A DNA stretch of 39,041 nt from positions 1-39,041 of the IMG/VR virus record IMGVR_UViG_3300037117_000188. One strand, written 5' to 3'. Under the pieces are notes generated by a model that did no database searches, was not told the origin of the DNA, and was given only the letters and a program-made list of their open reading frames with translations. This DNA is from a virus. A program made the position numbers and the translations under genes. Below, piece after piece: positions 7,339 to 21,989 of the stretch (the first letter of the stretch is position 1; each line of letters starts with the position of its first letter).

Positions 7339-7992
7339 ATGAAAAAATTATTCTCCATTCTTATGTTAGCTCCTATTCTAATGTGGGCAGACGTATTGGT
7401 TGTCACTCCTATTGCTACACCTATTGTTGTTGCTCCTCCTGTTCCTGTTATTCAAATTCCACTTTATCAGCAATATTTAGGAATGGCTGTTGGAACAGAT
7501 TATTGTTTTCTGACAAACTCATCTAATTCAGGACTAAAAGTTGGAATAAAAGCCGGATTGATTTACGGATATTATTTTGAATCAGGATTTAGAGGAGAAC
7601 TTGAAGTTAGCTTTCGTAAGAATTCATTCAGAACTAAATACAATGCTAAGAAAGATGATCTTATTATATCAAAAGTCTATAGGAGTATGCATTCTTGGAC
7701 ATATATGGCTAATTTACTCTATGACATCAACCGTTTAACTTATCGAACTATCGTGCCATATGTTGGTATTGGTATTGGCTATTGTCAGTTTACAGATAAG
7801 AATAAATACAAATCTGATACCGAGGTTAATGTTGAGAAAGAAAAGGACGATCGTTTCGTTTATCAAGGAATTGTTGGAGCTAGATACTCAATTAATCCTG
7901 AAGTTGAAGCAGGAATACAATATCAATATTTCTGTGGGCAGTCACATGCTAAAAATCATTCTATAACATTATCAATGATTCGTAACTTCTAA
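7339..7992 (+). CDS. Outer-membrane beta-barrel protein with signal peptide
   Basis: The 217-aa protein begins with a signal peptide (MKKLFSILMLAPILMWA, likely cut near residue 17) and a Val/Pro-rich linker. Alternating strands with aromatic belts follow (KAGLIYGYYFESGFRGELEV; VPYVGIGIGYCQF; GIVGARYSINPEVEAGIQYQ). It ends in Phe, the C-terminal signature of BamA-inserted barrels. Strand number fits an 8-stranded OmpA/OmpX-size barrel. It acts in the host outer membrane, perhaps blocking superinfection or altering the surface. The RBS AAAGGAAA precedes the ATG. It is unusual for a virion-focused genome of this size. Confidence 0.8.
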   Translation: MKKLFSILMLAPILMWADVLVVTPIATPIVVAPPVPVIQIPLYQQYLGMAVGTDYCFLTNSSNSGLKVGIKAGLIYGYYFESGFRGELEVSFRKNSFRTKYNAKKDDLIISKVYRSMHSWTYMANLLYDINRLTYRTIVPYVGIGIGYCQFTDKNKYKSDTEVNVEKEKDDRFVYQGIVGARYSINPEVEAGIQYQYFCGQSHAKNHSITLSMIRNF

Positions 7993-9818: not shown

Positions 9819-11522
9819 ATGGCAGACGAACTTCCATTAGCCCCCAAACAGCTTGAATTCATTCTAAATTCAACCCGTCATTGGAACATTGCACATGGAT
9901 CAGTTAGATCAGGTAAAACTGTAGGCAGTCTATTCCGTTTCATGCAAGCGGTCTATCATTGTCCAGATAGTCAAATCTTCATGGTTGGCCATTCATCCGA
10001 TACGATTTACCAAAATGCGATCCGTTTAATTCTGGAATCTGACCAATTAGCGATATTTCGTCCATTCTGTGTATGGTATGCAGGAAAGAGACAACTCAAG
10101 TTCATGGATAAATCAATACAAACACTAGGTGCTAAAGACGAGGGAGCAATAGGAAACTTTCAAGGTAAGACATTTTCTTTAGTTTATTGCGATGAAATGA
10201 CTCTCTACCCTGATTCCATCATTGACATGATCGATACTCGTTTATCAAAGAAACATTCAATGGGATTCGCAACAATGAACCCATCATATCCTACACATAA
10301 AATAAAGAAATGGATAGATTTAGCAAAAGCGGGAGATCCCAATTATTATGCATTGCACTTTACTCTTGATGACAATCCTTATGTTGATGAAGATTACAAA
10401 GCTCGAATCAGAAATAGCACTTCCGGCATTTTTTACAAACGTAATTACCTGGGCCTTTGGGTCCTTGCTGAAGGGAGTATTTTTGACTTTTTTGATCGCA
10501 ACCTACACGTTCTTGATCGTCCTCCTTGCGCTGCTGAATATTGGATTGCGGGTATCGACTATGGTTCAGTCAATCCTTTTGCTTGCATTCTCGTTGGCGT
10601 TTCCACAGGAAGATATACACAAACAGGTAAGAAAATGTGGGTTGAAAGAGAATACTTTTGGGACCCAAGTCCTAAGGGAAAAGGAAGACAGAAAGTAAAC
10701 CATGAATTTGCTGAAGATGTAGCAGAATTCCTTGAGCCCTATAACGTTAAACATATTTATATTGATCCCTCAGCTGAACCGTTTCAATTAGAACTACGTC
10801 GCAGAGGATTACACGCAGTTCATGCAAATAATGATGTAGAGAATGGAATACAGATTATGACCTCTGAGATGCAAAGGGGTAATTTATCAGTGCTTAAGTC
10901 ATGTCCCAATACAATCAGAGAAATAGAGAGTTATGTATGGGATAGTAAGGCAGCAGAGAAGGGCTGGGAAGAGCCGATTAAGAAAGATGACCATTGCATT
11001 GTAGGGGATACATTAGTCAAAACTGGGATTGGGGATGTCAAAATAATAGATCTTATAGATGAAATAAAAGGACTTACATATGGATTTGATTCACAAAAAG
11101 GATTCATTCTTACGCCAATAGCTTGGGTAAAAAAAACTAGAGAAAAACAAAAAATATTCAAATTGACTCTAGAAAACGGTAAAACATTGAGAGCAACAGG
11201 CGATCATAAAGTATACACAAGGATTGGATACATTGAAATACAAAATCTCTTGCCAACTGATGAAGTGCTCTGTTATGAAGGCGTTTACTCAAAAGTAAAA
11301 TCAGTTGAAGAAGATGGCATTGAAGATGTCTATTGTTTAAATGTTCCTGAAACAGGAAATTTTGTAGCCAATGGCATTGTAATTTCAAATTGTTTAGATG
11401 CCCTTAGATATGCCATGGCTACTCATAAAGTCAGTACTTATCAACCTTATAAAAATGACAACGACAATGGTTTTGGTGGTCCAAAGAATAAATATGATCC
11501 AACATCAAGGTTTATAAGATGA
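9819..11522 (+). CDS. terL: Terminase large subunit with in-frame mini-intein
   Basis: The 567-aa precursor yields a 435-aa terminase after loss of a 132-aa intein. The ATPase domain shows Walker A GSVRSGKT (residues 27-34) and Walker B LVYCDE (D125, E126). The RNase H-like nuclease shows Asp 247 (AGIDYGS), Asp 316 (YIDPSAEP) and Asp 527 (CLDALRY). It packages DNA into proheads and cuts concatemers. The intein sits between His 392 and Cys 525, directly before the third nuclease Asp, so the nuclease centre cannot assemble until splicing occurs. The RBS AAGGAA precedes the ATG. Confidence 0.95.
   Translation: MADELPLAPKQLEFILNSTRHWNIAHGSVRSGKTVGSLFRFMQAVYHCPDSQIFMVGHSSDTIYQNAIRLILESDQLAIFRPFCVWYAGKRQLKFMDKSIQTLGAKDEGAIGNFQGKTFSLVYCDEMTLYPDSIIDMIDTRLSKKHSMGFATMNPSYPTHKIKKWIDLAKAGDPNYYALHFTLDDNPYVDEDYKARIRNSTSGIFYKRNYLGLWVLAEGSIFDFFDRNLHVLDRPPCAAEYWIAGIDYGSVNPFACILVGVSTGRYTQTGKKMWVEREYFWDPSPKGKGRQKVNHEFAEDVAEFLEPYNVKHIYIDPSAEPFQLELRRRGLHAVHANNDVENGIQIMTSEMQRGNLSVLKSCPNTIREIESYVWDSKAAEKGWEEPIKKDDHCIVGDTLVKTGIGDVKIIDLIDEIKGLTYGFDSQKGFILTPIAWVKKTREKQKIFKLTLENGKTLRATGDHKVYTRIGYIEIQNLLPTDEVLCYEGVYSKVKSVEEDGIEDVYCLNVPETGNFVANGIVISNCLDALRYAMATHKVSTYQPYKNDNDNGFGGPKNKYDPTSRFIR
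10995..11390 (+). mobile_element. Mini-intein in the large terminase (no endonuclease)
   Basis: It covers residues 393-524. Block A is CIVGDTLVKT with the nucleophile Cys. Block B is LRATGDHKVYT with the conserved T-x-x-H. The C-terminal blocks are VYCLNVPETGNFVANG and GIVISN, followed by Cys +1 of the extein. The penultimate residue is Ser instead of the usual His; some natural inteins splice without that His. At 132 aa it is at the lower limit for splicing domains, so it cannot home on its own. Confidence 0.9.
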
Positions 11523-11532
11523 ATATGCATAA

Positions 11533-11564
11533 ATTTCACGATTTTCTATATATGTTTGTGAAAT
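11533..11564. other. Inverted repeat downstream of large terminase
   Basis: ATTTCAC (11533-11539) and GTGAAAT (11558-11564) could form a stem with an 18-nt AT-rich loop just after the terminase stop. There is no U-run; it could be an operator for the promoter at 11585. Confidence 0.3.
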
Positions 11565-11584
11565 ATACATAATTTATATGTAGA

Positions 11585-11613
11585 TTGAATTAATGATGAA
11601 TATCCGTTATACT
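11585..11613 (+). promoter_or_regulatory. Promoter for the portal/late operon
   Basis: TTGAAT (11585-11590), 17-nt spacer, TATACT (11608-11613). It lies 27 nt before the ATG at 11640 in the 117-nt gap after the terminase gene, so it probably drives the portal and downstream genes. Confidence 0.6.
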
Positions 11614-11639
11614 AGAGATACATAACCACGAGGTGCTTT

Positions 11640-11819
11640 ATGAGCTCTCCAATCGCTGGTATCCGAGAAGTTAACGTCAAACTAGACGTTGCCGATAGTT
11701 GCAACTGTTGTTGCTGTATTCCAAAAAAACATCATCATAAAGTTCATAAAGATAAGATTCCTAAAACGGAATCAGTAGATACTAGAGTCAAAAAAGCAAT
11801 TTACTGTATTTTGCTATGA
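11640..11819 (+). CDS. Cys/His-rich small protein
   Basis: This 59-aa protein has a central CNCCCCIPKKHHHKVHK run with five Cys and four His, suggesting metal binding. The RBS CGAGGTG precedes the ATG. Its stop overlaps the next start (ATGA). No family is recognised. Confidence 0.5.
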   Translation: MSSPIAGIREVNVKLDVADSCNCCCCIPKKHHHKVHKDKIPKTESVDTRVKKAIYCILL

Positions 11820-12010
11820 CGATTCCTTCACTGGAATATCTCTGTCGAAGTGCATTGATGAAGCAGTCTATCCTTAAAATGAAGAAATCAGGATATAGAC
11901 ATTATATTGTCATAGGGGATTATATTGATCAATATGAGGAAGTCCTCAATATGTTGAAGCATATTTCTAAAGTGAAATTACAGAAAGATAAGTTATTTGT
12001 GAAATTGTGA
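11816..12010 (+). CDS. Hypothetical small basic protein
   Basis: This 64-aa protein is translationally coupled to the Cys/His-rich gene by an ATGA overlap. It has a mixed alpha/beta pattern (YRHYIVIGDYIDQYEEVLNM) and a Lys-rich end. The function is unknown. Confidence 0.5.
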   Translation: MTIPSLEYLCRSALMKQSILKMKKSGYRHYIVIGDYIDQYEEVLNMLKHISKVKLQKDKLFVKL

Positions 12011-12158
12011 GTCTATCATCTAAATTCATTAGGTAATAATAAATCAGTAGACTAATATACCATTGTAAAACGTCATAATTTTACGCGCATTATTCATATT
12101 ATATGTTTCCTTGGGCTCACATCGTCACTGTAGTGAGCTTTTCTTTTGAATTTTTAAC

Positions 12159-12302
12159 ATGTCTAGGGGGCACCCGAAAAGCGATTCTCGATCTGAACAT
12201 CAAAAGAAACATTGGGAACAAGGTGATCATGATCATGAAATGGTTAAGAGAAAGGAAATTCTTGCAAAATGGAGAAAGAAACACAATAATGTAACTAAAT
12301 AA
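12159..12302 (+). CDS. Hypothetical small charged protein
   Basis: This 47-aa protein starts MSRGHPKSDSRSEHQKKH and ends KKHNNVTK. It is very rich in His, Lys and Asp, and probably disordered. It lies 15 nt upstream of the portal start. The overlapping longer frame at 12103 in another phase is less convincing. Confidence 0.4.
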   Translation: MSRGHPKSDSRSEHQKKHWEQGDHDHEMVKRKEILAKWRKKHNNVTK

Positions 12303-12317
12303 TAATTGGAGGTTTTA

Positions 12318-12339
12318 GTGTCTTTTTATTTTCCTCCGT
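12318..12339 (+). CDS. Portal protein, exon 1 (22 nt)
   Basis: A GTG codon follows the RBS TTGGAGG at a good distance and encodes MSFYFPP before a group I intron cuts in. That opening is of the type seen in P22-like portal proteins, and the downstream exon lacks a start with an RBS. The last seven bases CCTCCGT pair with GCGGAGG at 12347-12353 with a U-G pair at the cut, the hallmark of P1. The exon is short enough to be missed by gene finders. Confidence 0.7.
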
Positions 12340-12630
12340 AAATTCTGCGGAGGCAAAGCCATTATAAATGGGAATAACGCTCTCGAGCCTAGTCAAGGGA
12401 ACGTTAGACAATGGCTTGACAACCTAAAATGTATGGGTTGTATAAACCCACTCTGATTGACTTGGAAGGCTAAACCGGAAGGCATGCCGACAAGGCGCAA
12501 GCGTAAGCAGCGTGAGAGACTAAGTGAGAGGGCTCAGAAATGAGATGCGATAGTCCGATCCAAACAACGAAAGGTTTGGAGAATGGCAGAAATGACCGTT
12601 CCCAGTATAAAAACTGAGTAACAAAAAGAT
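12340..12630 (+). ncRNA. Group I intron in the portal gene
   Basis: Paired elements: P1 (12333-12339 with 12347-12353), P2 AAGCCATT/AATGGCTT (12356-12363, 12410-12417), P2.1 ACAACC/GGTTGT (12419-12424, 12436-12441), P7 GACTA/TAGTC (12518-12522, 12551-12555), P8 CTCA-GAAA-TGAG (12533-12544), P9 CCAAAC/GTTTGG (12560-12565, 12574-12579). It has no ORF. The 3' end is not certain: by analogy with the capsid introns (TAACA plus five bases ending in G) it would be G12628, while a join at 12631 keeps the frame. Confidence 0.85.
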
Positions 12631-14675
12631 ACAGTAAATTCCAGCCGATAGAACAGTCACGATGGAATCAATCGAATATAGATACTCTTTTCTATGCTGG
12701 CGCACAAACCTTCGTGAACCGGTATTTCAATTTCGCGCCCTCAAGTAGTTATCAACAATACTATTTCAATTTAATCCAACAGCCCATCAACATGGTCACT
12801 GGATATGAAAGGCAACATCGTAAAGCTTTCATGTATCAAGCAACAGAAGGTGGAGACAATCAAACAACCGATCAATACACGAAACTAATTACACATGCAT
12901 GCAATATTGGTGCAATTCATGAGCAAAAATCTAAGGCAAAAGAATTATCCGCTATCTCTGGCATGGTCCTACTTCAGCCTTATCTTGATTTTTCAGGAGA
13001 TGACCAAGCTCAAGGCGAATTGAAAGTTAAAATCTGGGAATATAATAGCTTCCTCGTTGATCCATATTTTAGATCACCCGACATGTCCGATGCTCAATTC
13101 ATTTGGTGCCAAGAATACATCTCCAAGAAAGAAGCGGAAGATCGCTTTCCTGATAAAATAGCTCAGATCATGCCTATGGCTGGAACTCCGCAACGTTATG
13201 GTTCATTCTATTTCCTTCCAGAAAACTACAATATGGCTCGCAATGATCTGATGGTCTTAAGTTATGTGTGGTATAAATGGAAAAAGAAAAAGAAAAGACT
13301 CTATAGCCGTAAACGAAATCAATTCTTTGATTTTGCAGGTGGTGAAGAACAACTTGATCAAATTCTTTATGCTATTGATGATCTAGAACAAGTCACTGTT
13401 GATACTCCTTGCTGGAAACTTGCTGTGGTTCTTAATGAACAGTTAATGTTTCAGGGCGATAATCCATTAGGTGATTTTGGCTGCCCAATGATTCCTTACT
13501 TCTGGAACTATGAACCTCATATAAACTATTACGACCTAAGAGTGAGGAGTTTAGTCCGCACTATGAGGGACCCACAGTTCCTTTTCAATTATAAGGTAAT
13601 TACCAATAATGATATCACCGCAGCGACAATTAATGCAGGATGGAAACGTAAAATTGGAGCCGTAGCTAACGAGGACAATCTCAAGAAAACAGGTCAAGGC
13701 TGGGATATCATCATCAATGATGGCTATGAGATGAGTGATGTTGAGAAGATCATTCCTAGTGGTGTTCCTGAATCTGATTTAGCATTAGCTCAACAGATGG
13801 CTGATTTGATTTACAATACGTCTGGGATTCAGTTAGAGAATTGGTCCGGTCAACAAGATAAGCAGATATCAAGTTTGACAATGATGTTAAAGCAAGCTGC
13901 TAACCTCATGGTATTTCAGAAATATTTCGATCAATGGGATTATTCCGACAAGTTGTTAGGAGATAAACTTCTTCAAATAGCTCTTAACGCGTGGAATGCT
14001 GAAAAAGTTAAATTATTGATTGGTGAAGAACCAACACCTTATTTCTATTCAAGAGTATTTTCCAAATATCAAACGATGGTTGAAGAATCAGATTTAACCC
14101 CAACACAACAAAATCTCCAAGCTCAACAGATGATGGATATCAACTCAGCCTTTGCAAGAGAAGTGTTCCCACCATCAATGATTATACCTAAACTCAATAT
14201 CACCGGTAAAGGCGAAATCATCCCATACTTGCAACAACAAGAGCAAATGGCTCAACAGACTCAACAGGCTCAAATGGAAGTTTCGCATGCTGTTGAGCAT
14301 GCACAATTACAACAATTAACTAGTAAGGCCGCTTTAAATATTGCAAGTGCAAGAGAGAGACATGGACGTGCAGAAAGCAATATAGGTCTCTTTGAAGAAA
14401 GATTGAGCATGATCACCAAGAACCATGCACTCGCATCAAAAGAGAAGATGGCAGCATTAGCCCAATTGGTCGAAACAATACAGAAATTCGGAGAAGTAGA
14501 AACTTTCTTGCAGCAAAACAAATTAGAGTCAATCGAGTATAGAGATGATCAGGATGAAGAAAGAGGCAAGATGGATGCTAAAATGACAGCTGAAAGCAAT
14601 AAATTTGTACAAGAGATTATGGGTGGGATGGGACAACAACAACAATCTTCCCAAAATATGGGGCAAATGGTATAA
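12631..14675 (+). CDS. Portal protein, exon 2
   Basis: Joined to exon 1 the product is 688 aa, the size of P22-type portals. The exon reads YSKFQPIEQSRWNQSNIDTL then FYAGAQTFVNRYFNF and INMVTGYERQHRKAF, matching the conserved start of this portal family; SSLTMMLKQAANLMVFQKYF lies in the wing/stem region. The C-terminal 150 residues are Gln-rich helices (QQEQMAQQTQQAQMEV), like the barrel of P22 portals. The portal forms the dodecameric DNA channel and nucleates capsid assembly. The GTG at 12714 that a gene finder would choose is internal. Confidence 0.9.
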
Positions 14676-14713
14676 ACAAAGTAATTAAAGATCATTAGAT
14701 CTAAGGAGAAATT

Positions 14714-14935
14714 ATGGCAGGGGGTCAAAAAATTGATGATCATTCATTCTGGGCCGGAGGTAAATCGAAAGATTCCGTATTTCCAATGGGTGTTCATACT
14801 AAAGATGAGAGTTCTGCAGAAGGTGCAGGAGATGTTTCTACTTACGAAGATACCACAGAGAGAATTAAGTTTTCTCAAGAAATGGGTAAGAAAGAAATTA
14901 AAGCTCGTCCTCTCAAACCTGGAACTCGTTACTAA
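14714..14935 (+). CDS. Hypothetical small virion-associated protein
   Basis: This 73-aa protein has RBS AAGGAGA. It is polar and Gly-rich, with DDHSFWAGGKSKDSVFPMGV. Small proteins of this kind commonly follow the portal gene; their role is unknown. Confidence 0.5.
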   Translation: MAGGQKIDDHSFWAGGKSKDSVFPMGVHTKDESSAEGAGDVSTYEDTTERIKFSQEMGKKEIKARPLKPGTRY

Positions 14936-14995
14936 TATATCCTAGATCATATCGTGTTCATCCTCGTTATGATCTACAATCTATCTAGGGGCATT

Positions 14996-15286
14996 ATGGT
15001 AAGAAAAACTGAGTTTCAAATGAACGTCAACGCCAAATCTGGTTTTGCCGATCCTGATCGTATCAAATATGAGAAAGAGAAAGCTAAACCTGAAGATGGA
15101 AAGAATTCACCATGGGATTATCGTTGCCCTCAGTATGATCAGAGATCTTCTAATTTTATCAATGCTGGTACTCATTACGGTGTAGGAATCAACCAACCAG
15201 TCGGTCATAAAGGCAATCCTAAATCAAAAGTCGATGTGCTTCCCTATGGACGAGTAAAGACAACAAGAGATGATCAGGAAGGATGA
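14996..15286 (+). CDS. Hypothetical small protein
   Basis: This 96-aa protein starts at MVRKTEFQM because TAGGGG precedes that ATG; the longer frame from 14954 has no RBS. It is basic, Gly/Asn/Tyr-rich (GTHYGVGINQPVGHKGNPKS) and probably unstructured. It is coupled to the next gene by an ATGA overlap. Confidence 0.5.
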   Translation: MVRKTEFQMNVNAKSGFADPDRIKYEKEKAKPEDGKNSPWDYRCPQYDQRSSNFINAGTHYGVGINQPVGHKGNPKSKVDVLPYGRVKTTRDDQEG

Positions 15287-15465
15287 AGCTCTCACAGATC
15301 AAGAAACCTAAACACAAACAAGCTCATACAGCTCAAACACCTTATGGTCTCGGCGATTATTATGGGACTGGGATTACTGCAAAGATTGGTCGTCAGACTG
15401 AAGGGATGGGCTTTCAAGAAGTTTCTCTGAAGAAGTTGAAGAAACCTCCAAAATCATTGGCATAA
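15283..15465 (+). CDS. Hypothetical small basic protein
   Basis: This 60-aa protein shares TPYGLGDYYGTGITAK-type Gly/Tyr composition with its upstream neighbour, suggesting related small virion proteins. Its last 92 nt overlap the convergent gene 15374-15985. Confidence 0.5.
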   Translation: MKLSQIKKPKHKQAHTAQTPYGLGDYYGTGITAKIGRQTEGMGFQEVSLKKLKKPPKSLA

Positions 15466-15985
15466 ATAATTCTTTATCTATCTTTGTATTATTAAATATA
15501 TCCACATTTCTTTGATGTCTTGTCTTAATCCTTTTCATTTGCATTTCTTTAGATATCTGCTCATAGATGTCATCAATTTGATAATCCTGTAAATCATCAT
15601 CATCTTTAATTTCTAGTTTTTCTCGGTTAAATTGAAAATCGTGAATACTTTCACTAATGATTTTATTCTGTGTTAACTTTCCATGTTCATATTGTTTCCA
15701 CATGCAACGATCAGGAATCATCCAGATAACTTTAACTAAATCAGTTCCAGGATATCCTTTAAATAACATTGAATTAGTCTGAGCTTTTGGTCTAGTCAAT
15801 CGTGGTTGCCAGATTAATCTTTTGGTTATTCCATCCTCATCAGTTCTTGGATGTGCAAAGATATAGAAGGCATGATTTCCAAACGGCCTTTGGTTAATCA
15901 TGTCTTGACAACATTCAGAAATACTAAAATTCTGCTTTTGAATGTATGTTAAACGGTCATGAGCATCTAGGATATTGATTTTCAT
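15374..15985 (-). CDS. Conserved-looking phage protein of unknown function, antisense in the head module
   Basis: This 203-aa protein has a compact N-terminal domain (FYIFAHPRTDEDGITKRLIW, QPRLTRPKAQTNSMLFKGYP, VIWMIPDRCMWKQYEHGK) and a charged, probably disordered C-terminal third rich in Asp, Glu and Lys. I do not recognise a family. It is the only leftward gene between portal and capsid and overlaps its convergent neighbour. Operator-like repeats lie upstream (16057-16098). Confidence 0.55.
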   Translation of the reverse strand: MKINILDAHDRLTYIQKQNFSISECCQDMINQRPFGNHAFYIFAHPRTDEDGITKRLIWQPRLTRPKAQTNSMLFKGYPGTDLVKVIWMIPDRCMWKQYEHGKLTQNKIISESIHDFQFNREKLEIKDDDDLQDYQIDDIYEQISKEMQMKRIKTRHQRNVDIFNNTKIDKELFMPMILEVSSTSSEKLLESPSLQSDDQSLQ

Positions 15986-16056
15986 TATTACCTGCTTTAT
16001 TCTATTTCAGACATCGCTTTGGTCTCTTATCACTGGGGTATAAGTCCTTTTTCTAT

Positions 16057-16098
16057 CATTCTTGTGTCAATTTCATCGTGACACATTCTTGTGTCAAT
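16057..16098. repeat. 15-bp direct repeat with interleaved TGTGTCA/TGACACA motifs
   Basis: CATTCTTGTGTCAAT occurs perfectly at 16057-16071 and 16084-16098. The seven-mer TGTGTCA (16063-16069, 16090-16096) and its reverse complement TGACACA (16079-16085) alternate, typical of a regulator-binding site between divergent genes. Confidence 0.55.
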
Positions 16099-16105
16099 AG
16101 TTTCC

Positions 16106-16134
16106 TTGATATTAATCAAATCATTTAGTTTAAT
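16106..16134 (+). promoter_or_regulatory. Candidate promoter for the scaffold gene
   Basis: TTGATA (16106-16111), 17-nt spacer, TTTAAT (16129-16134), 48 nt before the scaffold ATG and right of the repeat cluster. The match is moderate. Confidence 0.4.
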
Positions 16135-16181
16135 AACTTTATATTTCAACCGCCGCCTAGCGTTACAGGCAAGGAGAAATC

Positions 16182-16835
16182 ATGACATCCTCTACAAATA
16201 CCCCAATTCAAAATAATGTTTCAACAGAAAATAAATCTAATGATAAAGAATTAAACTTTCGGGCACTAGAAGCCAAATATGAAAAAAAAGTCGCAGAAGA
16301 AAGATCAGCTCGTTTAGAAGCTGAAAGATTACTCCAAGAGAGAAATAATGTACAAGATGAAGATGACGACGAACCATATGTAGATCAGAAGAAATTAGAT
16401 AAGAAATTGGCCAAATTTGGACAATCAACCCAGCAAGAAATTCATAAGTCCATGGAAATGACTAAAGAAGCGGTCAAAGATGAATTGAGAAAGGAAATGT
16501 GGTTAGAGAACAATCCTGATTTCTATGATATCCTTCAACATGCCGACAAGTTTGCTCAAAAAGCTCCTCAATTAGCTGAAAGTATCCTAAGAATGCCTGA
16601 AGGCTTTGAAAGACAAAAGTTGGTTTATCAAAACATTAAGGCAATGGGAATAAATCAACCTGAGAAAAAAGAATCTTCCATTCAACAAAAGATTGATGCA
16701 AATAAAAAAAGCCCGTATTATCAACCTTCTGGAATGGGTACTGCTCCTTATGCTAGTGTGGCCGACTATAGTCCTCAAGGACAGAAACAGGCATATGATA
16801 AATTACAAGAACTAAAGAAAAACCTCAGGATATGA
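16182..16835 (+). CDS. Scaffold protein
   Basis: This 217-aa protein lies between portal and capsid genes. It has a disordered N-terminus, a long charged coiled coil (LEAKYEKKVAEERSARLEAE, then KDELRKEMWLENNPDFYDIL) and a short basic C-terminus (KLQELKKNLRI), the profile of podovirus scaffolds that template procapsid assembly and bind the coat through the basic tail. The RBS AAGGAG precedes the ATG. Assignment rests on profile and location, not on a strict motif. Confidence 0.7.
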   Translation: MTSSTNTPIQNNVSTENKSNDKELNFRALEAKYEKKVAEERSARLEAERLLQERNNVQDEDDDEPYVDQKKLDKKLAKFGQSTQQEIHKSMEMTKEAVKDELRKEMWLENNPDFYDILQHADKFAQKAPQLAESILRMPEGFERQKLVYQNIKAMGINQPEKKESSIQQKIDANKKSPYYQPSGMGTAPYASVADYSPQGQKQAYDKLQELKKNLRI

Positions 16836-16836
16836 T

Positions 16837-16983
16837 ATGCCACTAGTAAAAGGTAAAGCAGCAAAGAATAAGAAGGGATTTTCTGAAAATATTAGTCGAG
16901 AAATGCACGCTGGAAAATCGCAGAAACAAGCTGTGGCGATTGCTTACAGTGAAGCAAAAGAATCTAAAAAGAAGAAAAAATAA
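16837..16983 (+). CDS. Small basic phage protein (DUF6496-like)
   Basis: This 48-aa protein contains FSENISREMHAGKSQKQAVA followed by IAYSEAK, a motif common in tiny phage proteins near head genes and annotated as DUF6496-like. It ends in a Lys run. It starts one base after the scaffold stop, so translation is probably coupled. Confidence 0.6.
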   Translation: MPLVKGKAAKNKKGFSENISREMHAGKSQKQAVAIAYSEAKESKKKKK

Positions 16984-16991
16984 GAGGAAAT

Positions 16992-17114
16992 ATGGCTAAA
17001 TCAAAAAATGACAAAATGGCTGATAGTGAGAAAATGGGATCTTTCGAAAAGAAAGGAATGAAACCAGAAATGAAAAAAGACATGAAAAAAGATATAAAGT
17101 CTAAGAAAAAATGA
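16992..17114 (+). CDS. Tiny Lys/Met-rich protein
   Basis: The 40-aa peptide is almost entirely Lys, Met, Asp and Ser (MKPEMKKDMKKDIKSKKK). The RBS AGAGGAAA precedes it. It is likely disordered and may bind nucleic acid. The next gene starts directly after its stop. Confidence 0.45.
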   Translation: MAKSKNDKMADSEKMGSFEKKGMKPEMKKDMKKDIKSKKK

Positions 17115-17333
17115 ATGGAAAAATGCGTTAAATGTAAAATTAATGAAAGGCGAGTTATTGTAACAGAAGGGGGAGTTAATTACCCTTTCTGTGAAGATTG
17201 TGCTTTTCTATTAGAAAGTGCTCCTACAAATAATACAGCCACTTTTTCTGATAAAAATCCTGAAAACTGGGTTATGAAAAATATTCAGGATGCAAAAGAA
17301 AGACGAGCTAATGGAATATTTCTCTGGAAATAA
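17115..17333 (+). CDS. Small zinc-ribbon protein
   Basis: This 72-aa protein has two C-x-x-C knuckles (CVKC at residues 4-7, CEDC at about 26-29) separated by a beta hairpin, i.e. a treble-clef or ribbon zinc site, followed by a short helical tail. The function is unknown. Confidence 0.55.
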   Translation: MEKCVKCKINERRVIVTEGGVNYPFCEDCAFLLESAPTNNTATFSDKNPENWVMKNIQDAKERRANGIFLWK

Positions 17334-17342
17334 TAAATTATT

Positions 17343-17474
17343 ATGTTAAAGAAAATCTTTTTTACACTCTTAACCATATCTGGAATCATTGGAATGGCAT
17401 TCTTCTTGTATTTTCTGGTTATGATTTTTATTTGCTGTGAAGATATTTTATCTTTTATCCACCGATTTTTATGA
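17343..17474 (+). CDS. Small membrane protein
   Basis: The 43-aa peptide has a basic start (MLKKIFF) and a long hydrophobic stretch (LLTISGIIGMAFFLYFLVMI), enough for one or two short spans. It is found within the head operon, away from the other small membrane genes. A lysis role is possible but unsupported. Confidence 0.4.
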   Translation: MLKKIFFTLLTISGIIGMAFFLYFLVMIFICCEDILSFIHRFL

Positions 17475-17486
17475 TGAGGAAATAAT

Positions 17487-17681
17487 ATGGCAAAAGAAAA
17501 ATGGATACAAAAAGCTTTATCAAAACCTAAAAGTCACGGAGCATTACATCGTGAACTTGGTGTTAAAGTAGGAAAGAAGATTTCTGAAAAGAAATTAGAA
17601 AAAGCTGAACATTCCAAAAATCCAACAACAAAAAAAAGAGCTGTTCTAGCTGAGACTTTAAAGCACTTGAAAAAGAAATAA
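17487..17681 (+). CDS. Small basic virion-type protein
   Basis: The 64-aa sequence MAKEKWIQKALSKPKSHGAL then HRELGVKVGKKI resembles a widespread small phage protein that follows scaffold or capsid genes. It is strongly basic and Ala/Lys-rich. The RBS GAGGAAA precedes it. Confidence 0.55.
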   Translation: MAKEKWIQKALSKPKSHGALHRELGVKVGKKISEKKLEKAEHSKNPTTKKRAVLAETLKHLKKK

Positions 17682-17735
17682 TTACTTCATAGAATAAAGA
17701 TACGTAGCACTTGCGTCAACGTGCATTTCGCGTTA

Positions 17736-17765
17736 TTGGTTTTCGCATCCCAATCAAGGTATGAT
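17736..17765 (+). promoter_or_regulatory. Candidate capsid-gene promoter
   Basis: TTGGTT (17736-17741), 18-nt spacer, TATGAT (17760-17765), in the 204-nt non-coding gap before the capsid gene. It would give a leader of about 115 nt. Confidence 0.4.
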
Positions 17766-17811
17766 CGAGTATAGATGTAGTTAGGTTCGTCTCCCGATCG
17801 TCATATCATAT

Positions 17812-17860
17812 GTACGGAGTTACTTAGTACATATTTTCAACGTACAAAGTTACTACGTAT
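17812..17860 (+). repeat. Imperfect 19-bp tandem motif in the capsid leader
   Basis: GTACGGAGTTACTTAGTAC (17812-17830) and GTACAAAGTTACTACGTAT (17842-17860) match at 14 of 19 positions with a 30-bp period. They lie in the predicted 5' leader of the capsid mRNA. Confidence 0.45.
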
Positions 17861-17885
17861 CCAATATACAGCCACAAAGGTTGAT

Positions 17886-18092
17886 ATGGGAATTACAAAT
17901 ACGGGTAATCTTGGTCCAATGATCTTGCAAAGCTTAGCTCCTGCAATGCTCTATGTGCCAACACCCACAATGAATTATATTACAATCTGCGATAAAGTTT
18001 CTATGCCTGCTAATGGCGGAACTACTTGCAGATTTATGCGCCCACATGCGCTACAACCCCCCACCGTTCAATTGGGTAATAGCGGTATCGAT
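17886..18092 (+). CDS. Major capsid protein (N4-gp56 type), exon 1
   Basis: The capsid gene reads as four exons (this one, 18329-18433, 19387-19424, 19621-20239) totalling 969 nt, 322 aa, close to the usual length. Exon 1 encodes 69 residues: SLAPAMLYVPTPTMNYITI, then MPANGGTTCRFMRPHALQPP, which matches the start of N4-gp56-family HK97-fold coat proteins. It ends in ATCGAT, which pairs with GTCGAT at 18105-18110 (P1, U-G at the cut). Unspliced, translation would run into the intron and stop after 88 residues. Confidence 0.85.
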
Positions 18093-18328
18093 AAACCTCG
18101 GCGTGTCGATGTAAAACCGATGATGATTGACTTGGAACTCCTGGCTGCATAAACAGAGGACAACAAGGGGCAAGCAAGGAAACTGTGCAGCCTGAACGAC
18201 TAAGTTCATTGGACGCGAAAGCGTATGCGATAGTCTGATCCGTGACTATATAAATGAAATCACGGAGGGAGATCCGAAGAGGTTTCCCCGCCTTGTAGCT
18301 GCAAGGGGTCAATAAAAGTAACAGAGTG
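18093..18328 (+). ncRNA. Group I intron 1 of the capsid gene (236 nt, no ORF)
   Basis: P1 is 18087-18092 with 18105-18110. P10 pairs the guide flank CGGCG with CGCCG of exon 2. P7 is GACTA/TAGTC (18198-18202, 18231-18235). P8 is ACGC-GAAA-GCGT (18213-18224). P9 is CCGTGA/TCACGG (18240-18245, 18260-18265). The 3' end is TAACA plus GAGTG. It is unusually compact: P1 is followed almost at once by the core, with no P2 domain. Confidence 0.85.
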
Positions 18329-18433
18329 CCGCCGGCACAAGTGCCCCAGCGAGATATAATCGATGGCGCAAATGGCTTTTTTTGGAACTGGGTGTATCAT
18401 CAATAGCAGGTGATCCTTCAGGATCAAGAGGGT
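18329..18433 (+). CDS. Major capsid protein, exon 2 (contains compensating frameshifts)
   Basis: Exon 2 is 105 nt (35 codons). It opens in frame with PPAQVPQRDIID and closes in frame with QVILQDQEG, both fitting the N4-gp56 family. Between them the family-like sequence AQMAFFGTGCIIN is read in the +1 frame (from 18366), and the exon frame there has a TAG at 18404. One extra base near 18365 and one missing base near 18404 would explain this exactly. It may be an assembly error or a real lesion. Total length is unchanged. Confidence 0.6.
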
Positions 18434-19386
18434 TTTATACTTGCAGCATAATGTTGGTGGGTCTATAATATAACAAACCGAAAGGAGGTTATATGAAAGA
18501 TCCTGAAGAAAAGGAAATATTAGCTTACATAGCTGGTTTAATAGATGGCGATGGAAATATAGGAATGAGAATTGGACCAAGAGGAAAATTATGTCCTTTG
18601 ATTCAACTTCACAATTCTTTTAAACAAACGCCTGTTTATCTAAATAAATTGTTTGGTGGAACTGTAGCTTTTGATAAACCAAAAAAAGAAGGATATCGAG
18701 TGATTTGGAAATGGATGCTTCAAGGAGAAGAAGGATGCCAAAACTTTCTAAATAAAGTGATGGAATTCTTGGTTTTGAAGAGAGATTCCGCTGTTCATTT
18801 GATGGAATTCTTATGTAAACGTAATGAGGGAAAAGAATATTTTAAAATATCAAAAGATTTAAATTTAAATAGAAAAATAGGTCCTTTTGATATTGATAAT
18901 ATCGATAGAAAAACCAGCACTTGCCCTTATTTTTGGGCATATGTATCAGGAATTATGGATACAGATGGTTCATTTTCAATTGAAAGATCAGTTCGTAAAG
19001 CTGGACAAAATAGACAATTAAATGATTTGGTGAAGTTTAGACCAAAAATTATATTGTCTATGGTTAGTGAAAGATCTATTAGGCATATCTTGTCAAATTG
19101 TGAATATGGTGGTTTATGTATTGTAAAAGCCAGTTGTGCTTTAAGGGGATCGGCTTTTAGATTTTCGATCCAATCAAGATCGGCTGCCATTGAATTCTTG
19201 AAAAGATGTATTCCTTATCTTCAAATAAAGGCAATTCAAGCGGTGAAAATCTTGAATTTTTGTAGAAATTATAATCCAACAAATGGATTAGCAAGGATTC
19301 CAGAAGAAGAAAAAGAATACCGTGAGAAGTGCTATAAAGAAATAGTTATGCTTAATAACACGCCCTCTTAGGCTAGAATAGAATTG
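18434..19386 (+). mobile_element. Insertion 2 of the capsid gene: endonuclease-bearing group I-type intron without a visible core
   Basis: The 953-nt insertion carries a LAGLIDADG gene. Near its 3' end TAACAC-GCCCTCTT (19356-19369) pairs with both exons: GCCCTCTT with AAGAGGGT ending exon 2 (U-G at the cut), TAACAC with GTGTTA opening exon 3. The last base is G, as in group I introns. Only 17 nt separate this guide from the 3' end, so P3-P9 cannot fit there, and I find no core elsewhere in it. Splicing, if it occurs, may use the adjacent intron's ribozyme. Confidence 0.65.
18493..19371 (+). CDS. LAGLIDADG homing endonuclease
   Basis: This 292-aa protein has two LAGLIDADG helices, YIAGLIDGDGN (about residues 12-22) and YVSGIMDTDGS (about 149-159), each with the catalytic Asp, so it is a monomeric two-motif enzyme. 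The RBS AAAGGAGG is strong and independent of the capsid gene. Such enzymes cut intronless alleles at the insertion site; some also act as maturases. Its last codons overlap the guide sequence of the insertion (19356-19369), so protein and RNA guide are constrained together. Confidence 0.92.
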   Translation: MKDPEEKEILAYIAGLIDGDGNIGMRIGPRGKLCPLIQLHNSFKQTPVYLNKLFGGTVAFDKPKKEGYRVIWKWMLQGEEGCQNFLNKVMEFLVLKRDSAVHLMEFLCKRNEGKEYFKISKDLNLNRKIGPFDIDNIDRKTSTCPYFWAYVSGIMDTDGSFSIERSVRKAGQNRQLNDLVKFRPKIILSMVSERSIRHILSNCEYGGLCIVKASCALRGSAFRFSIQSRSAAIEFLKRCIPYLQIKAIQAVKILNFCRNYNPTNGLARIPEEEKEYREKCYKEIVMLNNTPS

Positions 19387-19424
19387 GTGTTAGCTTGGGT
19401 ATCCGAGCGTCTAGCCGTGGCCAT
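19387..19424 (+). CDS. Major capsid protein, exon 3 (38-nt micro-exon)
   Basis: It encodes VLAWVSERLAVA plus two bases of the next codon. In the coat family this helix sits between the QDQEG-type loop (exon 2) and the RQAEDLILRDY helix (exon 4), so the protein needs it. Both junctions are in frame and both are supported by guide pairing: GTGTTA with TAACAC on the left, and GTGGCCAT with GTGGCCAT (19433-19440) on the right. Confidence 0.75.
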
Positions 19425-19620
19425 CTTGACAAGTGGCCATTAAACCTTTGGTAATTGACTTGGAGGCCCGACGGGGTAACAAGGCGCAAGTTTAAATACA
19501 GCGTGAGAGACTAAACCCAGAGGACGCGAAAGCGTATGTGATAGTCCGATCTGCAACTATAAATAAAATTGCAGAGAGAAGCAGAAATGACTTCTCCCCA
19601 CTATGTGGAGTAACAATTTG
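19425..19620 (+). ncRNA. Group I intron 3 of the capsid gene (196 nt, no ORF)
   Basis: P1 is 19417-19424 with 19433-19440, U-G at the cut. P10 is CTTGAC (19425-19430) with GTCAAG of exon 4 (19623-19628). P7 is GACTA/TAGTC (19509-19513, 19542-19546). P8 is ACGC-GAAA-GCGT (19524-19535). P9 is CTGCAA/TTGCAG (19551-19556, 19569-19574). The 3' end is TAACA plus ATTTG. Its P7-P8 block is nearly identical to intron 1, so the two are recent relatives. At 196 nt it is near the minimum for a working group I intron. Confidence 0.87.
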
Positions 19621-20239
19621 GCGTCAAGCAGAAGATTTGATCCTTAGGGATTACGTTGTATCTGCCGCATCTGAAATTTCAGCTGGCGGTGGTTCCAATG
19701 GAGATAACCCAACAAATCTTGGAGTCACTGACTTCAGTTTGGTTGCGGCAACTCTTGATACCAACAATGCCTACAAATTTATGTCAGGTATTGAAGGAAT
19801 GGATAGATTTGGAACTGGTCCAGTACGTTCATCCTATTTCATGCTCAGTTCAACTGAACTTCAGCCTGATTTTGATGGATTAATGGGAAGCGGATTTTTG
19901 TCTCAATGGAATTATCCAAGTAATTCGTCAGCATTGCCTTCTGAATATGGAAACGTTTTTAACATTCGTATTCTGACAAGTTCTGAAGCTCCCGTTGCAC
20001 GTGGAACATCAGCTAAAGGTAATGACGTTTATTACAATACTGTAGTTGGAAAACAAGCGGTAACTCACATAAATCAAGATGGTTTTTCCATGAATTTGAT
20101 TTATCGTGATCCATACTATTCAGGAATGCTTGCACAGAACGCAACTTTGGCAGTTAAATTTGCCCAAGCTCAAGCGATCACGCAGGATACCGCCATCAGA
20201 AACCTCTTAAGCACACGCTTAAGCAACCTGGGGGTATAA
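19621..20239 (+). CDS. Major capsid protein, exon 4
   Basis: It encodes the C-terminal 205 residues: RQAEDLILRDYVVSAAS, a DRFGTGPVRSSYFMLSSTEL segment, and the closing KFAQAQAITQDTAIRNLLST, all fitting the N4-gp56 coat fold (spine helix, P-domain and A-domain strands). An in-frame reading from 19538 is intron sequence, not a real start. The stop TAA at 20237-20239 precedes the next ATG by one base. Confidence 0.88.
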
Positions 20240-21407: not shown

Positions 21408-21428
21408 TATTTAAATTATGACATGATT

Positions 21429-21452
21429 CCCCCTAGGAAACTAGGGGGTTTT
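21429..21452 (+). terminator. Rho-independent-type hairpin before the HNH gene
   Basis: CCCCCTAG (21429-21436), GAAA loop, CTAGGGGG (21441-21448), then TTTT. It is a stable 8-bp stem with a tetraloop and a U-run immediately before the ATG at 21453. It can end transcripts of the structural operon and also buries the G-rich ribosome site of the HNH gene. Confidence 0.75.
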
Positions 21453-21989
21453 ATGAAAATTACATGTAATAGATGTGAAAAAGAAAAAGAATTAGAAGAA
21501 TTCGTTTCTTCTATGTATGCAAAGAATAAAAAAAGAAAATTATGCAAAGAATGTCATAATGGAAATGTTAGAAAAAAAAGAATCGAAAAATTTGGTACAG
21601 TTAGCGAAAAAAGAATTGAAAGAATAATGGAATATAGAAAATCACAAGGAATTTCTCTTGATCTTCCGATTAAACAAACACGAAAAGGCGAAGGTTATAT
21701 AAATTATTATGGATATCGACAATTTACTGGAAACAAGTTTAAAGATCATCCAAATTCTGATAAAAATGGTAGAATTTTAGAACATATTTTGGTAATGAGT
21801 AATTATATCGGAAGACCAATCCAAAAAGGGGAAATTATTCACCATAAGAATGGAATAAGAGATGATAATCGAATTGAAAATTTAGAATTATGGACTTGTA
21901 GTCATCCTTCCGGATCACGTGTAAAAGATAAAGTTAAATGGGCTATAGATTTTTTAAAAGAATATGGATATAAAGTAGAAAAGGTATAA
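21453..21989 (+). CDS. HNH homing-type endonuclease
   Basis: The 178-aa protein starts at MKITCNRCEKEKEL; an upstream ATG at 21423 would lie in the terminator. The N-terminus has a zinc knuckle (CNRC, CKEC). The HNH core is ILEHILVMSNYIGRPI then EIIHHKNGIRDDNRIENLEL, with the catalytic His-His pair, Asn and final Asn-Leu-Glu. It is free-standing, between two genes that share homologous sequence, a common niche for mobile endonucleases. Confidence 0.9.
   Translation: MKITCNRCEKEKELEEFVSSMYAKNKKRKLCKECHNGNVRKKRIEKFGTVSEKRIERIMEYRKSQGISLDLPIKQTRKGEGYINYYGYRQFTGNKFKDHPNSDKNGRILEHILVMSNYIGRPIQKGEIIHHKNGIRDDNRIENLELWTCSHPSGSRVKDKVKWAIDFLKEYGYKVEKV

Follow-up and report, generated by a model that had tools for sequence, protein, structure and literature searches.

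Dense introns and inteins are known from the major capsid protein (MCP) and large terminase subunit (TerL) genes of crAss-like phages (PMC7886860), and the intron in the capsid gene of mycobacteriophage LittleE has been proven (PMC3706429). Here we describe a soil phage, represented by the 39,041-bp virus record IMGVR_UViG_3300037117_000188 (hereafter the window, analyzed at its full length), in which the genes for the terminase large subunit, the portal and the coat protein hold a mini-intein, three complete group I introns and two insertions that have no catalytic core and that we call coreless elements. With the LittleE and crAss-like elements (PMC3706429, PMC7886860) the window shares group I introns or inteins in coat and terminase genes, homing endonucleases in some of them and a polymorphic occupancy, but coreless partners and degron-like read-through are not reported for those phages in the literature searched. 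A first interpretation made from the letters alone (the sequence-only reading) had emphasized the high density of self-splicing elements clustered in these three genes. The elements are real and clustered, and were if anything understated, but density by itself is not new given the crAss-like precedent, and the label self-splicing is wrong for the two insertions of 953 nt and 31 nt that lack a core. What appears to be new, judging from the sequences, is a coreless element that depends on the ribozyme of a neighbor, together with an intron-coded degron. We consider it quite probable that the locus combines complete group I introns, coreless elements that are excised by a downstream core and read-through tails in the coat gene that serve as degrons.

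To our knowledge, a core serving several splice sites, or serving non-autonomous passengers, is known only from engineered ribozymes. Group I ribozymes have been designed that use P1, P9.0 and P10 to cut out segments as long as 28 nt and that take single nucleotides out of mRNA in E. coli, and introns of 100 nt have been removed by spliceozymes (PMC4094466). These trans-excision-splicing ribozymes and spliceozymes (PMC4094466, PMC4509937), acting on segments of 1-28 nt and of about 100 nt, respectively, have in common with the window a core that removes an internal segment not its own through P1 and P10; in the engineered systems the guide is part of the ribozyme, whereas in the window, as read from the sequence, the guide would lie within the removed element and the core on the same natural transcript. 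The trans-spliced group I introns of mitochondrial cox1 (PMC2813288) are a case of natural group I splicing with non-contiguous RNA parts, as we propose for the window, but there a single intron with a single core is broken in two, and here the parts would be separate insertions without any core. In the open-access literature searched we found no report of natural coreless group I introns or of core-borrowing. The group III introns of Euglena chloroplasts are short and degenerate, having kept splice-site features and lost the catalytic domains; they are derived from group II introns and reside in a plastid.

Insertions were mapped with a purpose-written spliced protein-to-DNA aligner, in which the coat, portal and terminase proteins of an intron-less relative (L002) were run against every locus, yielding a comparison set of well-aligned distinct genes, about 99 for the coat and 112 for the portal. 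Splice borders were refined with a score that favored a U for the 5′ border and a G for the 3′ border, P1 length being part of the score. Apparent insertions near the terminase C-terminus, near the coat C-terminus (codon 318 and later) and in a few low-scoring portals were alignment artefacts and were discarded. Occupancy, which the sequence-only reading had suggested comparing, is indeed polymorphic among the roughly 100 relatives, many of which have empty sites.

Three of the window's insertions, sized by spliced alignment (Table 1), are complete introns. RNAalifold analysis of an alignment of 32 complete introns from coat and portal genes recovered P3, P4, P5, P6, P8, P9 and P9.1, and 29 of the 35 pairs show compensatory changes. 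When P7 was added as a pseudoknot, 97.8% of all cells were paired, compared with 73.4% after shuffling and about 40% with the helices slid. With the P3/P7 pseudoknot included, two-sided changes occur in 29 of 38 pairs overall, among them all seven pairs of P3 and two of the five pairs of P7, whose remaining pairs are invariant, and one P3-P9 core with this pseudoknot fits all three window introns. A held-out covariance model (R2), built from 20 introns of relatives with the window excluded and run with filters off over the whole 39 kb, recognized the three introns at the scores given in Table 1 (E about 1e-35 or better for each); the next match reached 13.3 bits. Complete introns have a P1 of at least 6 bp in 70 of 71 cases, a U in P1 forming U.G at the 5′ splice site and a terminal G. 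Because of the core covariation and the P3/P7 pseudoknot, we conclude that the one portal and two coat insertions are complete group I introns, and self-splicing is predicted for them; the portal intron and the two coat introns had been correctly named from the letters alone. The sequence-only reading would have been refuted, by its own account, had covariance models failed to recognize the portal and capsid introns, and this test came out split. Rfam models, including group I model RF00028, do not match the window introns even at E up to 10, and the model made only from relatives finds all three and nothing else in the window; the Rfam miss is a gap in RF00028, not an absence of the core. The sole Rfam signal was a full-length match of the LOOT RNA model RF03000 at 12467-12601, within the portal intron core (15.7 bits, below threshold), and introns of this type might be kin to LOOT RNAs.

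The two coreless elements are of another kind. The 31-nt portal element had been overlooked beside the portal intron, and the element at coat codon 104 had been entered as an endonuclease insertion, which is right as to its LAGLIDADG reading frame but missed the exact splice-type borders, the element's own guide helix and the want of a core. In covariance-model scans with filters off, neither element yielded a catalytic core and, being without a core of their own, they are not filed here as group I introns. Both nevertheless follow a common plan: the 5′ exon ends in U; an internal guide, its first G opposite that U, pairs with seven or eight bases of the exon; P10 forms between the stretch preceding the guide and the first five or six bases of the next exon; and the element closes with a G 17 nt past the guide. 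In the portal element the guide GCGGAGG (12347-12353) pairs with exon CCTCCGT and P10 joins 12342-12346 to 12371-12375, and in the coat element the guide GCCCTCTT lies at 19362-19369 and P10 is AACAC/GTGTT. A complete intron begins 55 nt beyond the portal element, and the last complete intron of the coat gene 38 nt beyond the coat element.

The same plan recurs in relatives at coat codons 88, 92, 104 and 114 and at portal codons 8, 32 and 36. The codon 104 element exists both with an endonuclease (946-978 nt) and without one (33-93 nt), and the endonuclease therefore sits in the P1 loop; an element so equipped may itself be mobile though non-autonomous. Among 34 distinct coreless elements in our first sample, P1 has at least 7 bp in all 34 (3% after shuffling), P10 has at least 4 bp in 31 (6% after shuffling) and the terminal G is always present. 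Guide and exon covary in P1 at portal codon 8 (CCGT/GCGG, CCAT/GTGG) and portal codon 36 (GTCT/GGAC, GGCT/GGTC, GGCT/GGCC), and P10 covaries at coat codon 104 (GTGTT/AACAC, GTATT/AATAC, GTACT/AGTAC).

One might suppose that ribosomes skip the coreless elements by programmed bypassing, as in T4 gene 60, and their sizes of 30-60 nt and frequent in-frame stops just past the border do resemble the gene 60 gap. Inspection of the borders, however, shows take-off and landing codons that do not match (for example, GGT against TTG or ATG at codon 104), there are several insertions that fall within a codon, and one version is 950 nt long with a gene of its own; bypassing also leaves unexplained both the P1/P10 covariation and the obligatory neighboring core described below, and we regard it as very improbable. 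At portal codon 36/37, eight loci carry a separate kind of insertion, 47-61 nt long, placed directly after a CGG codon in all eight and before TGG, with a long covarying hairpin and an A-rich tail, and with neither a P1 nor a group I core in the portal gene (L011:2357-2404, L031:3020-3066, L038:7598-7651, L040:3007-3054, L056:7543-7595, L072:3082-3134, L151 and L253). These insertions resemble the T4 gene 60 bypass, though the landing triplets differ.

Every coreless element found, 45 of 45, has another core on the same transcript, as trans-excision demands: a complete group I intron lies downstream in the same gene, its core backed by the held-out model. The 45 comprise the first-sample elements, those of eight coat genes from a pattern scan and those of two contigs of metagenome-assembled genomes (MAGs); in two loci that seemed to lack a complete intron, L037 and L056, the core runs off the contig end. 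Of the portals that carry a coreless element, 10 of 10 also have a complete intron, versus 3 of 102 among those that do not, and for the coats the figures are 18 of 18 with such an element versus 13 of 79 without (Fisher test, about 1e-11 in each case). The pattern scan, made for the codon 104 guide pair, returned nine stretches, eight of them coat genes in which a complete intron follows 54 nt further on; the ninth (L241) was unrelated and was set aside. Partner introns occur at codons 97, 102, 117, 120, 123 and 144, and they alternate: codon 88 elements are found with 97, 102 or 144 and codon 104 elements with 117 or 123. This alternation argues for a dependence on the presence of some core and not on one particular neighbor. 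Were the coreless element instead folded with the help of some other RNA or of a host or phage protein factor, the nearby intron would be a hitchhiker that co-spreads by homing. Homing co-conversion would likewise link neighboring elements, and some pairs are constantly spaced (55 and 43 nt in the portal, 54 nt in the coat), but the alternating partners speak against it, as does the finding that complete introns often stand alone and coreless elements never do; we judge this account unlikely. Joining of the 5′ exon to a point beyond the mini-exon was also considered and rejected, as most mini-exon lengths (38, 55, 43 and 26 nt) break the frame.

We think it likely from these sequence comparisons that the coreless elements are removed by the neighboring core and constitute a natural counterpart of trans-excision ribozymes. 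In this mechanism the coreless elements keep only the parts needed for splice-site recognition, that is, the U of P1 with its U.G, the P10 pairing to the 3′ exon and the terminal G, and the core of the downstream complete intron, before or after excising itself, would accept the upstream P1/P10 substrate on the same transcript.

The coat insertions have a second property, which concerns translation of unspliced RNA. If the codon-70 intron is left in, coat exon 1 of the window reads in frame to ...IDLELLAA-stop at 18152, and if that intron is removed, read-through into the codon 104 element gives ...EGFILAA-stop (18434-18451). In the first sample, an Ala-Ala-stop ending is found in 22 of 23 first insertions that interrupt the coat gene at codon 70 or later, and the two remaining frames give 0 of 46; of coat insertions located earlier than codon 70 none of 11 has it, and of portal insertions one of 27. 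In loci obtained later the ending is found in 17 of 32 coat insertions versus 0 of 64 control frames. Pooling of the late coat insertions gives 62 of 87, against about 1 in 200 for control frames. These 62 tails use 18 different nine-base words and all three stop codons, Leu precedes the two alanines in 36 of them, and the tails often end in LAA or YALAA.

Such endings could be a by-product of intron RNA structure and not selected tags. In one frame the conserved core word GCAGCGTGA reads as Ala-Ala-stop, and it supplies 7 of the 62 cases, but the other 55 lie outside it and use other words. The unrelated coreless elements have the ending in 29 of 32 cases, three elements at codon 88 reach RLAA-stop only by continuing out of frame into the next exon, and the ending is absent from early coat and portal insertions. 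A by-product thus seems to us an unlikely explanation, and selection on the end of the tail peptide is statistically supported. The SsrA tag of transfer-messenger RNA (tmRNA) has the C-terminus LAA or ALAA. The tails EQYALAA, NEYALLAAA and FEYALLAAA match it closely, several being close to ENYALAA; the SsrA tag is added by tmRNA, whereas the reading frame of the intron itself encodes tails of the window type. Ribosomes that translate coat RNA before splicing would run in frame into a short tail ending in Ala-Ala, which would act like an SsrA tag, and truncated coat fragments would be degraded by ClpXP-type proteases; long fragments would in this way be kept from poisoning capsid assembly. The intron-encoded tails are, then, probably SsrA/ClpXP-type degrons, and the open-access literature searched held no report of intron-coded degrons. 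The LittleE capsid intron (L255, JF937101; 1011-1084 and the capsid exon 1 border) reads through to ATAAA-stop. It is also a weak match to R2, at 20.6 bits. Tail and match together hint that neither feature is confined to this phage group.

Coat exon 2 of the window differs from a plain exon in two places that the sequence-only reading missed and that are common to relatives: a +1 change at codon 82 and a -1 change at codon 95 (18404/18405). An indel at codon 82 is present in all seven carriers of the codon-70 intron and in 0 of 92 other coats. The insert is G in the window, L008, L164 and L165 and AG or TG in L161, L166 and L167; it follows a second AUCGAU, which matches the guide of the codon-70 intron, and the exon bases face the guide extension as GCGC/GCGU in four genomes, GCAC/GUGU in two and GCGC/GUGU in one. 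The four genomes with the G insert are also one G short after AUCAAU at codon 95. As read from the sequences, differences among carriers across this stretch are synonymous in the normal frame, and we therefore think that the RNA is corrected. As a hypothesis only, the G, AG or TG would be removed from the RNA by trans-excision through the codon-70 intron. Regaining the missing G would require an insertion reaction, for which the precedents cited, in the reference list of PMC6155759, are in vitro only. A scan of the four genomes for a guide to the missing codon 95 base gave one 8-bp match in the window and none in L008, L164 or L165.

Decaying gene copies or assembly errors would explain why these indels shift about 13 codons out of frame with an in-frame stop. 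Identical borders and indels nevertheless recur in phages that come from other samples, the guide varies together with its exon, the exon 2 differences between carriers are synonymous in the normal frame, and the window holds no second copy of coat exon 2; decay or error is in our view extremely improbable as the source of the disrupted genes. A more far-reaching version of core-borrowing, to which we give tentative credence somewhat short of an even chance, would have one core remove itself, several coreless elements of 30-950 nt and even the G, AG or TG at coat codon 82 (with the codon-70 guide and P10 pairings GCGC/GCGU and GCAC/GUGU), with the base missing 39 nt further on restored in the RNA of some genomes and unspliced products tagged for degradation.

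Several observations weigh against the combination of borrowed cores and degron tails. The tails of coreless elements pair with their own downstream intron no better than with introns of other genomes, and beyond P1 and P10 we found no feature that ties a coreless element to its neighbor's core. The border refinement score, which rewards U, G and P1 length, inflates the P1 statistics somewhat, and the genomes share ancestry, so the counts are not independent. Among the later-obtained loci just five of eight first insertions end in Ala-Ala-stop, two of the other three ending in SA, and the contribution of GCAGCGTGA must be reckoned in as well. Finally, the paired coat exon 2 indels are not accounted for by simple excision.

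The remaining claims of the sequence-only reading, an intein in the large terminase and an HNH gene downstream of the capsid gene, were both borne out. The terminase mini-intein is real by its sequence features: it matches PF14890 at 2.6e-12, has Cys1, a C-terminal Asn and Cys+1, and has no endonuclease domain; the corresponding insertion in the terminase of L063 is likewise 396 nt. Relatives of the HNH gene are scattered at various places in 20 of 80 related loci.

Table 1. Elements, exons and associated genes of the window (nt, nucleotides; aa, amino acids).
Feature	Position	Strand	Evidence or remark
Terminase large subunit gene	9819-11522	+	
Mini-intein, 132 aa, in terminase large subunit gene	10995-11390	+	PF14890; C...SN/C borders; L063 insertion at equal place
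Portal exon 1, GTG start (~12318), end CCUCCGU	12318-12339	+	spliced alignment to intron-less L002 portal
Coreless element, 31 nt, portal	12340-12370	+	P1 guide, P10 and terminal G; no core by covariance model
Portal mini-exon, 55 nt	12371-12425	+	spliced alignment
Complete group I intron, 203 nt, portal	12426-12628	+	held-out model R2, 158.0 bits; covariation
Rest of portal gene (P22-type)	12629-14675	+	PF16510, phrog_156
Coat exon 1	17886-18092	+	spliced alignment
Complete group I intron, 236 nt, coat codon 70	18093-18328	+	R2, 150.3 bits
Coat exon 2, extra G at 18365, base missing after 18404	18329-18433	+	
Coreless element, 953 nt, coat codon 104	18434-19386	+	guide GCCCTCTT, P10, terminal G; no core
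LAGLIDADG homing endonuclease gene within coat coreless element	18493-19371	+	PF00961; relatives at same site
Coat mini-exon 3, 38 nt	19387-19424	+	
Complete group I intron, 196 nt, coat codon 117	19425-19620	+	R2, 159.5 bits
Coat exon 4	19621-20239	+	phrog_1357 (PHROG 1357), major head protein
Free-standing HNH endonuclease gene	21423-21989	+	PF13392

Two further genes of the window deserve mention. A gene at 7339-7992 encodes an outer-membrane beta-barrel protein with a signal peptide (PF13505, also PF01617 surface antigen) in this phage genome, and a minus-strand open reading frame at 15374-15985 (-) lies inside the plus-strand structural block and has a relative in 67 of 80 related loci. 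Relatives of the portal gene occur in more than 200 IMG/VR stretches, and tblastn with the window portal found none in the INPHARED phage collection. A genome scan found a portal gene identical to that of the window, with the same coat insertions, on PLLX01000034.1, a contig placed in a Bacteroidales MAG from a fen; other MAG matches are spread over bins of several phyla, and the phage host is thus not settled by bin.

If the proposal is true, non-autonomous passengers exist in nature for group I introns just as they do for transposons, and one ribozyme core, in a spliceosome-like manner, is able to act on several splice sites of a transcript. Insertions as short as 30 nt would escape intron finders, making essential phage genes look broken in metagenomes, and by coding for a degron an intron would lower the cost that it, as a parasitic element, imposes on the host gene, a strategy that would be new.

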